Below, one piece after another: positions 3,875 to 44,934 of a stretch of DNA of 44,934 nt. Made by a program: the position numbers and the translations under genes. A model generated the notes under the pieces. The model was not told the DNA's origin. It saw only the letters and a program-made list of their open reading frames with translations, and did no database searches. How positions within the stretch are numbered: the first letter of the stretch is position 1; every line of letters begins with the position of its first letter. Location of the stretch: IMG/VR virus record IMGVR_UViG_3300021425_000059, positions 1 to 44,934 of that record, one strand, 5' to 3'. This stretch comes from a virus.

Positions 3875-4270
3875 ATGCCAGCGGCACTCCCTCACAAGAA
3901 AGCGATTGCCAATCGAATCCGCAAGATGATTCGTGATGGCGTAGCTATGAAGGACATCATGGTCTCTATCCAAGACCTACAGGATGCACCTTCTTCCTTT
4001 GCCACCTTCTACAAGATTTACGGTCAGGACATTGCACAAGAGCGTTCTGACATTGTAGGGATGGTAGGCAACAAAGTAGTGCAACAGGCACTAGAAGGTG
4101 ACTTCAAGTCTCAGGAACTCTTCCTTCGTAGTAAGGGCGGTTGGTCTCCTAACTCTACCCTGAACGAGCAGGAGCAGGACACTGAGGCTGATATGGATGA
4201 ATCCGCTATCGACGCCCTGATGACCCTCCTTGGTAAATCCCGACCTGATGACTCTAGCGATAACGGCTGA
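3875..4270 (+). CDS. terS: Terminase small subunit
   Basis: 131 aa, directly upstream of and overlapping the large subunit, the standard position. The N-terminal ~60 residues form a helix-turn-helix-like region (KAIANRIRKMIRDGVAMKDI, then SSFATFYKIYG), as in DNA-recognising small terminases. The middle is helical and suited to ring assembly, and the C terminus is acidic and likely contacts the large subunit. It selects phage DNA for packaging. Name given from context and architecture; sequence similarity to any characterised TerS is not evident. Confidence 0.8.
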   Translation: MPAALPHKKAIANRIRKMIRDGVAMKDIMVSIQDLQDAPSSFATFYKIYGQDIAQERSDIVGMVGNKVVQQALEGDFKSQELFLRSKGGWSPNSTLNEQEQDTEADMDESAIDALMTLLGKSRPDDSSDNG

Positions 4271-5603
4271 AGATTTACGGAAGCTCCCCGATGAAGAAGT
4301 AGCCTCCCTGATGGACCAGCTAGGTCCAGCTAAGGTAGAAGAGCTACGACACACTTGGGAGTTCTGGGCTAGACCCAACCAGCTAGAGCCAAAGGGCAAT
4401 GACTGGGATATTTGGGTAGCCTTGGCAGGACGAGGCTGGGGCAAGACCAGAGCCGGTGCAGAGTGGGTAAGACACCGGGTCCGTAAGGGCGACAAGATCG
4501 TACATTGTGTAGCACCTACTAAAGGTGATGTACGCAAGGTGATGGTTGAAGGGGACTCTGGCCTCCTTAACGTCTGTTGGAAGGGTGACAAGACATATAG
4601 AGGGAAGCATATCGGCTACCCTGAATGGTCACCCACTAACAACACCATGACATGGGAGAATGGAGCTAAGGCTGTATTCTTCTCGGCAGAAGACCCCGAA
4701 CGACTCAGGGGACCGCAGGCCTTCTCTGCATGGTGTGATGAATTGTGTGCTTGGCGTAATGCCCAAGAGACTTGGGATATGTTGCAGTTTGGGCTTCGTT
4801 TGGGTAGCCACCCACAAGTCCTCATCACGACCACGCCCAAGACGACCAAGCTACTGAGAAACATTCTAGGTGATGACAAGACGGTAACGTCTACCGGCTC
4901 CACCTATGACAACTCGGCTAACCTAGCCTCTACGTTCCTTGACGCAGTTAAGAAGACGTATGAAGGCACTAGGCTGGGCCGACAAGAGCTATACGCAGAG
5001 ATCCTTGATGAAGCCTCCGGTGCCTTGTGGAACAGGGCAGGACTTGCTAAATGCGAGATTGAGGCAGACCAAGTTCCAGACTTAAACCGTATTGTAGTAT
5101 CAATCGACCCTGCTATCACCAGCAACTCCGAGTCAGACATGACTGGTATTGTTGTAGCAGGGGTTGATGTAAACGGTATCGCTTACGTTCTGGCAGACTG
5201 CACTGGTCGCTACACGCCTCAGCAATGGGCTGCGAGGGCGGTGTCACTCTTTGAAGAGTACCAAGCAGACCGCATTGTCGCCGAACGTAATCAGGGCGGA
5301 GATATGGTTCGCCATACTCTGCACACAGAGTCTGAAACGGTCCCTGTCAAGCTAGTCCATGCTAGTCGTGGCAAGATGGCCCGAGCAGAGCCTGTCTCCG
5401 CCCTGTATGAACAAGACAAAGTACGTCATGTAAAGGGCCTCAACGACCTAGAGGACCAGATGGTGACATGGGAGCCTCTAGGCTCTGTAGGATCACCAGA
5501 CCGCCTAGACGCCCTTGTATGGGCCATTACAGACCTATCACTACAGGGCTATGCCAAGCCCCAGCTAAAGTTGGCATATAGCTCTGCAAAAGGACTTAGA
5601 TAA
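4248..5603 (+). CDS. terL: Terminase large subunit (packaging ATPase-nuclease)
   Basis: 451 aa. The ATPase domain has a Walker A motif AGRGWGKTRAG at about residues 60-70, a Walker B with catalytic Glu (WCDEL, ~162-166) and the coupling motif LITTTPK (~192-198). The C-terminal RNase H-like nuclease shows the acidic residues SIDPAI (~285-290), a mid-domain AERNQGG and a terminal DRLDALVWA. It pumps DNA into the prohead and cuts headfuls or cohesive ends. I chose the ATG at 4248; a TTG at 4230 in the same frame would add six residues. It overlaps TerS by 23 bases. Confidence 0.95.
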   Translation: MTLAITAEDLRKLPDEEVASLMDQLGPAKVEELRHTWEFWARPNQLEPKGNDWDIWVALAGRGWGKTRAGAEWVRHRVRKGDKIVHCVAPTKGDVRKVMVEGDSGLLNVCWKGDKTYRGKHIGYPEWSPTNNTMTWENGAKAVFFSAEDPERLRGPQAFSAWCDELCAWRNAQETWDMLQFGLRLGSHPQVLITTTPKTTKLLRNILGDDKTVTSTGSTYDNSANLASTFLDAVKKTYEGTRLGRQELYAEILDEASGALWNRAGLAKCEIEADQVPDLNRIVVSIDPAITSNSESDMTGIVVAGVDVNGIAYVLADCTGRYTPQQWAARAVSLFEEYQADRIVAERNQGGDMVRHTLHTESETVPVKLVHASRGKMARAEPVSALYEQDKVRHVKGLNDLEDQMVTWEPLGSVGSPDRLDALVWAITDLSLQGYAKPQLKLAYSSAKGLR

Positions 5604-33006: not shown

Positions 33007-33022
33007 GGGGGCCGAAGCCCCC
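33007..33022 (-). terminator. UUCG hairpin at the 3' end of the tmRNA
   Basis: On the minus strand GGGGGC-TTCG-GCCCCC is a six-base-pair stem with a TTCG loop, followed by ACTCGTTTATAATT. It marks the end of the tmRNA coding piece and is probably both an RNA 3' stabiliser and a partial terminator before the outer-membrane gene. Confidence 0.75.
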
Positions 33023-33240
33023 TTCTGTTCCAAGGCCTCCCGTAGGCCCGTCTGTTATGCCGCAAGGGCTACAGAAGGTGCAACATAGTTGTTAGCACTT
33101 ATCAAGGTTGGTTCTTACGGAACCACTCGGTTGCCTCATTGTAGCGTCTAGTACCAGTCGATCCTAGTTCACCCCCATAGTTGGTGGAGGTGCGGGGTAC
33201 TGCCCCCCGGTCCTGCTTACTGTCTTCTACAAATCAACGG
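33007..33240 (-). ncRNA. ssrA: Permuted two-piece tmRNA (alphaproteobacterial type), tag ANNYVAPSVALAA
   Basis: Read on the minus strand. The acceptor piece comes first: CGGGG-GGCAGTA-CCCCG T-arm (33193-33209) and CACCTCC plus ACCA (33182-33192). Five bases later the coding piece opens with GGGGGTG (33170-33176), which pairs with CACCTCC (one G-T pair), and AACTAGGATCGACTGG, the usual tmRNA 5' motif. CTACAA (coding piece) pairs with TTGTAG (acceptor piece). A resume codon GCT starts tag ANNYVAPSVALAA, stop TAA (33055-33096). CCTTCTGT in the tag pairs with ACAGAAGG after the stop. It rescues stalled ribosomes and tags proteins for degradation. Acceptor 5' end is approximate. Confidence 0.9.
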
Positions 33241-33247
33241 CGAACAA

Positions 33248-33475
33248 CTAGACCAGCGTAAGGGTCTTATTTCCCTTGGGGGTGGTCCCTGTTTCTGCGT
33301 AGATAGAGAGCGCTTCTGACCAAGTGCCGGGGCCTAAATCGTCAAGGTACTTGAGCAGAGTCTTCTTTCTGATCCTGACTGGCACTCTAACAGCAGCGTT
33401 AAGGCTAACCCTGCCGTAGATCATATCAGCATCTTCTACAAGTTTCTTAAACTCTTTCAGGTTGTATGCTTTCAT
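33248..33475 (-). CDS. Hypothetical protein, 75 aa
   Basis: Basic protein with RVPVRIRKKTLLKYLDDLGP in the middle, possibly a small nucleic acid-binding or helical protein. It starts by ATGA overlap with the secreted protein gene (33472) and ends only about eight bases before the tmRNA acceptor piece, so the tmRNA is probably processed out of the same transcript. No family recognised. Confidence 0.65.
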   Translation of the reverse strand: MKAYNLKEFKKLVEDADMIYGRVSLNAAVRVPVRIRKKTLLKYLDDLGPGTWSEALSIYAETGTTPKGNKTLTLV

Positions 33476-44144: not shown

Positions 44145-44720
44145 CTATATTTCTGCTACCTCTTTCAGTTTTTCTCTGATCCTGTTGTCAATCTGCAACA
44201 CCCGTTGTTTGGTGATGTTGTATATCTCACCTATCTCAACCAGTGTGGCTTCATTGGGGCCATACCGCATGAGGAAGATGTCATAGTCCCTCTCAGAGAG
44301 TGTCTCTTTCATCTTAGCCTGAACCTGCTGCACCCAGAGGAATGCCTCCGTCTCACCCTGATAGACTACCTCATCACCCTCTAGGAGGGCCGTAGAAGCC
44401 CCTAGAGCGGCCTTGAGGCTATCATAGGTATCAGAGGTCATGGATTCTGTCACAGGTGCTTCAGCGCCGCTCCTGATGGCTTTCGCATTCTCCCTCGTTT
44501 CAGAAGAGGGGGCTATACTCAGTGGACCCTGACGAAGTGATATAAAATCCTGCATCCGCTTACGAGCATTAGTCCGCAAGGTATCGGGGTGGGTATTACC
44601 CCGGGCCTCTGTTTCTAGGAGGGCTAGTATTCCCTCCTGTATCAGGTCTTCGGTTAGCTCTGGTCGCCGGAAGCTAAGTGCTAACTTCCGGCAAACCTCC
44701 ATTTTCTCTTCGGTGTTCAT
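44145..44720 (-). CDS. Sigma-70 family RNA polymerase sigma factor
   Basis: 191 aa. Region 2-like LTEDLIQEGILALLETE near residue 23 with following basic helix, a variable middle, and a clear region 4 helix-turn-helix: LSERDYDIFLMRYGPNEATL, then VEIGEIYNITKQRVLQIDNR. Region 2 is weak and region 3 missing. It probably redirects host polymerase to the phage promoters with the TTAGGGCC block. ATGA overlap with the preceding small gene places it in the first leftward transcript, as expected for an early regulator. Confidence 0.82.
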   Translation of the reverse strand: MNTEEKMEVCRKLALSFRRPELTEDLIQEGILALLETEARGNTHPDTLRTNARKRMQDFISLRQGPLSIAPSSETRENAKAIRSGAEAPVTESMTSDTYDSLKAALGASTALLEGDEVVYQGETEAFLWVQQVQAKMKETLSERDYDIFLMRYGPNEATLVEIGEIYNITKQRVLQIDNRIREKLKEVAEI

Positions 44721-44890: not shown

Positions 44891-44901
44891 AGGGGCTATC
44901 C

Positions 44902-44934
44902 TTTCTATAGGGGGGGGTACTTTTGTATAGGGGG
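44902..44934. repeat. Right copy of terminal direct repeat
   Basis: 33 bases matching positions 1-34 except for one G fewer in the first G run. On the minus strand it lies just upstream of the ribosome site for the gene at 44717-44890 and carries short C-run units (TATAC, C run, CTATAG) that recur in the leader. Confidence 0.8.

Follow-up and report, generated by a model that had tools for sequence, protein, structure and literature searches.

The window, the whole of a 44,934-base IMG/VR virus record, carries on its minus strand (33249-33007) a complete, circularly permuted tmRNA gene, with a 75-aa gene directly before it and a 193-aa gene after it. The record also has genes for a terminase, portal and head proteins, a tape measure, and tail tip/fibre proteins, as well as for a DNA polymerase, primase/helicase, ribonucleotide reductase (RNR), ThyX, MazG, and PhoH. 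A further small protein (44145-44720, minus strand) contains a sigma-70 region 4 domain and is possibly a phage sigma factor. The record is classed as linear; its two ends (1-35 and 44900-44934) carry nearly the same sequence of about 35 bases in direct orientation, differing by one G, and the genome may thus be complete, whether circular or terminally redundant.

The nearest isolate was found to be Roseobacter phage CRP-6 (terminase, 80.5%; capsid, 74%), which makes a marine roseobacter the probable host. The original prediction of a lytic siphovirus stands in part. The tail genes fit a siphovirus, but CRP-6 is grouped with short-tailed phages (PMC6918029), and the sole basis for a lytic lifestyle is that no tyrosine integrase was found in the window.

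Identification and anatomy of the tmRNA gene

An Rfam scan matched the locus to RF04321 (tmRNA_permuted) with 97.3 bits (cut-off 47, E 8.1e-18), and to RF01849 (alpha_tmRNA), the model proposed as a check in the original prediction, with 65.9 bits (cut-off 50, E 6e-16); both scores are far outside chance expectation. The permuted order is present, with the acceptor piece and its encoded CCA lying 5′ of the coding piece, and the acceptor strands pair across the spacer. The short tag frame (GCT AAC AAC TAT GTT GCA CCT TCT GTA GCC CTT GCG GCA TAA) opens with an alanine resume codon and closes with a stop after a hydrophobic/AA end, and the GGCAGTA loop, AGGATCGAC, and an AACAGAA motif are features of the alpha-type (Table 1). 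Each element named beforehand was found in its place, and the reading of the locus as a phage-borne, permuted two-piece tmRNA of the alpha type is borne out by the Rfam matches, the virus record, and the covariation described below.

Table 1. Elements of the permuted tmRNA gene and their positions in the window
Feature	Position	Strand	Basis or remarks
3′ acceptor piece, first in gene	33182..33249	minus	RF04321 alignment starts at 33249; contains helix strands, T-arm, CACCTCC, discriminator A, and encoded CCA
TTGTAG with CTACAA, cross-piece pairing	33232-33227 with 33144-33139	minus	
T-arm CGGGG-GGCAGTA-CCCCG	33193..33209	minus	Two-sided changes; loop is alpha consensus
CACCTCC acceptor strand	33192-33186	minus	Followed by A and CCA, ending at 33182
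Spacer ACTAT, 5 nt	33177..33181	minus	Direct reading; expected to be removed
5′ coding piece	33007..33176	minus	Contains GGGGGTG strand, AGGATCGAC, tag frame, and 3′ hairpins
GGGGGTG acceptor strand	33176-33170	minus	Direct reading
AGGATCGAC motif	33165-33157	minus	Direct reading
Coding-piece hairpin TGGTTC-CGTAA-GAACCA	33109..33125	minus	One relative has C-G in place of U-A (double change)
Tag reading frame GCT...GCA TAA, peptide ANNYVAPSVALAA	33055..33096	minus	Direct reading
Hairpin spanning tag end and stop codon	33051..33075	minus	TCTGT/ACAGA plus GCC/GGC
Hairpin GGCCT/AGGCC, 3′ of stop codon	33034..33048	minus	100% paired among relatives
Terminal GC hairpin GGGGGC-TTCG-GCCCCC	33007..33022	minus	G-C to A-U double change; terminator-like scan hit

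The terminal GC hairpin is possibly the gene end or a weak terminator. No recognisable sigma-70 promoter was found beside the tmRNA on the minus strand. The fold energy of the gene was not unusual relative to shuffled sequences (z -1.0), and was uninformative. ARAGORN reported no tmRNA anywhere in the window, and it was also blind to most of the relatives tried, indicating that ARAGORN-based surveys undercount phage tmRNAs.

Relatives and conservation

A search with one exact pattern identified 101 IMG/VR stretches carrying a permuted tmRNA sequence, and a 2022 study had already described two-piece tmRNAs in marine phages (PMC9004378); the original description of a permuted alpha-type gene on a phage as unusual is therefore not supported. 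About 30 of the 101 stretches belong to the family of the window tmRNA; their spacers measure 5, 7, or 9 nt, and their tags read ANNYVAPSVALAA, ANNYVAPSVAIAA, or ANNYVAPSLAVAA. At least 21 distinct versions of the gene were collected from related metagenomic phage contigs. Searching with phoH added further relatives, in some of which the spacer is structured and 93-149 nt long, extending the spacer range to 5-149 nt. A DNA search of annotated phages with the window tmRNA returned nothing.

The tmRNA was present, as checked by pattern or Rfam, in every relative with phoH identity of at least 88% whose contig covers the site, and contigs without it end short of or near the site, as judged from their extents. 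No tmRNA was found near phoH in the scanned relatives at 54-65% identity or anywhere in four whole records, and CRP-6, an isolate that shares phoH, gave no tmRNA match, indicating that the gene is dispensable across the wider group of phoH-sharing phages. Among near relatives, identity is 97-98% for the tmRNA, compared with 91% for phoH and 87% for the downstream gene; among farther relatives, the values are 89-93%, 81-82%, and 74-77%, respectively. In its neighbourhood, the tmRNA ranks at or near the top for DNA conservation, the contrast with the genes being clearest in the farther group, since ThyX and RNR are similarly high (93-97%) in the near group. Conservation of the acceptor piece begins at GCCGTTGA (33241) in all relatives. 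Although the tag differs in sequence among relatives, its resume codon, length, stop codon, and final AA are preserved.

Several relatives and other phage contigs depart from the arrangement in the window. L116 (2053-2274) is chimeric, its acceptor piece coming from the family and its coding piece (tag ANDNFAIEDYRLAA) from another lineage, with the junction near the T-arm; its acceptor stem is kept by a matching change, and a cytidylyltransferase-like gene follows. L118 (7718-7989) belongs to the same family, but its T-arm (AGGGG-TGCAAAT-CCCCT) differs and its spacer is about 90 nt long, which suggests an exchange of parts at the T-arm. In L117 (2816-3107) and L130 (3641-3979), spacers of about 100-150 nt are bounded by inverted repeats, compared with 5-9 nt in their relatives, so that the intervening segment varies greatly within one phage group. 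L052 (182-464) contains an extra hairpin insert of about 38 nt directly 3′ of the tag stop codon. Permuted tmRNAs were also observed in larger virus records: L193 (120-kb record G015) has a 3-nt spacer, a tRNA-like sequence directly after the gene, and a frame from ANDN, ANDNVVQLSSYAARRKY, without the usual AA end; L189 (125-kb record G012) has an unusually long likely tag of about 34 residues (ANLVNAKASTGEVTVSAKNLKFRTLAAKGQSLAV); and the very large L190 (328-kb record G013) has the tag ANTFTNADENLALAA. In a more distantly related phage contig (L151), a group I intron match (78 bits; 4081-4324) lies close to phoH.

Secondary structure and covariation

The structure was evaluated with 21 distinct relatives and 52 base pairs, counting nested helices only. 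Across these sequences, 99.5% of the predicted pair cells were formed, and two-sided changes occurred at seven pairs, distributed over the T-stem, the coding-piece hairpin, the tag-end hairpin, and the 3′ hairpin. In total, 37 two-sided change cells were observed, compared with a mean of 11.6 for shuffled sequences and 0-2 for a control in which partners were slid. Double changes in the T-stem convert C-G to U-A or A-U, and G-C to C-G. This strong covariation shows that the tmRNA is maintained in the phage family.

The tag end had been proposed to be closed by an 8-bp stem of CCTTCTGT and ACAGAAGG. These strands are complementary in the window, but two of the eight pairs are broken in 16-17 of the 21 relatives, and the stem, with 80.4% of its cells paired and no covariation, was rejected. 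The tag end is closed instead by TCTGT (33075-33071) and ACAGA (33055-33051), which become TCCCT/AGGGA in relatives; two-sided changes affect two pairs of this stem and one further pair in the hairpin extension. The acceptor stem showed no variation among the 21 sequences, a constancy that is partly by construction because the pattern search required exact letters, and its third pair, a U·G at the AlaRS identity position, was invariant (21/21). Independent evidence for the proposed CACCTCC/GGGGGTG pairing, which is kept among related phages, comes from the chimeric L116, found via phoH, in which the strands are CATCTCC/GGGGATG, and most of the sampled bacterial copies provide further covariation with CGCCTCC/GGGGGCG.

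These conserved elements bear on whether the RNA might be a decoy that binds SmpB or ribosomes and thereby inhibits host trans-translation. A precedent exists in the tag-less, tRNA-like-only DS6A phage molecule, for which an inhibitory role was proposed (PMC11915505, PMC4131195), but the tag frame, resume codon, stop codon, and tag-end hairpin are all kept in relatives and would be superfluous for a decoy, making such a role highly improbable.

Bacterial counterparts and origin

Two apparent oddities of the phage gene proved to be ordinary features of its bacterial counterparts. The GGCAGTA T-loop, initially considered non-canonical, is the alpha consensus (GGCgGUA in RF01849), and GGCAGTA or GGCGGTA occurs in most sampled alphaproteobacteria; likewise, the very short spacer is matched by the 5-nt spacer of the bacterial tmRNA L218. 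The RF04321 cut-off was passed by 131 of 142 alphaproteobacterial genomes, mostly at 109-166 bits. The window tmRNA, at 97 bits, lies below most of the sampled copies, and by this measure is a divergent member of RF04321.

In a maximum-likelihood tree built from short rows, the phage family formed one clade (support 100/99) apart from the 27 bacterial copies, a small sample weighted to high scorers. This position suggests a long-standing phage tmRNA lineage, and recent capture from a sampled host is unsupported by the tree, within the same small, high-scoring sample. The gene might alternatively be a decaying passenger, that is, a host fragment acquired by imprecise excision, as ssrA is a common integration site (PMC9004378) and some relatives (L116, L118) are chimeric at the T-arm. 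However, the gene is complete and conserved with compensatory changes, the family has its own long-stemmed clade, and the window yielded no tyrosine integrase, so that a passenger origin is scarcely credible.

The tag peptide

All members of the phage family encode ANNYVAPS, whereas ANDN is present in most of the sampled bacterial tags. When the genome collection was scanned for the tmRNA motif followed by ANNYVAP, only three stretches were recovered, all from alphaproteobacterial MAGs with the tag ANNYVAPR[VA]ALAA. An ANNYVAP-type tag is thus rare but not phage-only; in the tree, the likeness of these three tags is not accompanied by close tmRNA kinship. Most other phage tmRNA families found have host-like ANDN tags.

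The distinct tag might alter the fate of tagged proteins; it might, for example, escape SspB, the host adaptor, yet retain the ClpX end, or mark selected host proteins. The difference from ANDN throughout the family and the recovery of only three similar stretches are consistent with such a role, but the near-identical tags of the three alphaproteobacteria, the LAA, IAA, or VAA ends shared with host tags, and the host-like tags of most other phage families argue against it, and we consider it unlikely. It is similarly doubtful that the phage's own tag places ribosome rescue under phage control, for example by bypassing the host adaptor for infection-stalled proteins. Nothing on SspB-tag contacts in alphaproteobacteria was found in the open-access papers searched.

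Proposed function and significance

The phage gene is a real, intact, and selectively maintained two-piece tmRNA of a kind already documented in phages, and very probably functions as an alpha-type tmRNA together with host SmpB, AlaRS, and ClpXP. No match to SmpB (PF01668) was found in the virus record, which thus contains no phage-encoded SmpB-tmRNA pair, and the tmRNA would depend wholly on the host. In bacteria, it is established that two-piece tmRNAs function, as in Caulobacter, and that AlaRS recognises the G·U pair for charging (PMC3985003). By strong analogy, the minus-strand precursor would fold with CACCTCC paired to GGGGGTG and with ACCA and the 5-nt spacer in a loop, from which host RNase P and 3′-end enzymes would excise the spacer to leave two base-paired RNAs. 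Host AlaRS would charge the molecule via the G·U third pair, and host SmpB and EF-Tu would deliver it to ribosomes stalled during infection, where ANNYVAPSVALAA would be added to the stalled product and its C-terminal LAA would direct that product to host ClpXP. The most likely benefit to the phage would be that ribosomes are kept available during mRNA degradation in infection; ribosome maintenance and host protein recycling have both been proposed as roles of phage tmRNAs (PMC9004378).

With these findings, the carriers of two-piece tmRNAs include a further, well-conserved phage family that has small genomes and probably infects roseobacters. Given the undercounting noted above, phage control of ribosome rescue becomes a broader, testable question.

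Comparison with known systems

The window tmRNA resembles the alphaproteobacterial permuted tmRNAs (RF01849/RF04321) in the order of acceptor, CCA, spacer, and coding piece, in the G·U pair of its acceptor stem, and in its T-loop (GGC[AG]GTA), AGGATCGAC, alanine resume codon, AA tag end, and AACAGAA motif. It differs from them in its location on a phage, its shorter 3′ region, its tag (ANNYVAPSVALAA), its lower score than most, and its sixth acceptor pair, which is A-U rather than the G-C of most sampled bacteria.

As a phage-encoded ssrA, it is also comparable to those of the mycobacteriophages (Bxz1 group and Wildcat) and of DS6A. The tmRNAs of the Bxz1 group and Wildcat are one-piece molecules. 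That of DS6A is reduced to the tRNA-like domain (PMC4131195). RF04321 and 79 bacteriophage tmRNA sequences have been described (PMC11915505), phages of Bradyrhizobium elkanii also carry a tmRNA (PMC12632393), and 50 of 53 reported two-piece structures are from marine or aquatic phages (PMC9004378). Among these systems, the Methylophilales phage Melnitz is, like the phage studied here, a marine phage with a permuted alpha-type ssrA (PMC9004378). The Melnitz gene has an attached glutamine riboswitch, whereas no riboswitch was matched by Rfam in the window, and Melnitz is a 141-kb myovirus, whereas the window represents a 45-kb phage with siphovirus-like tail genes.
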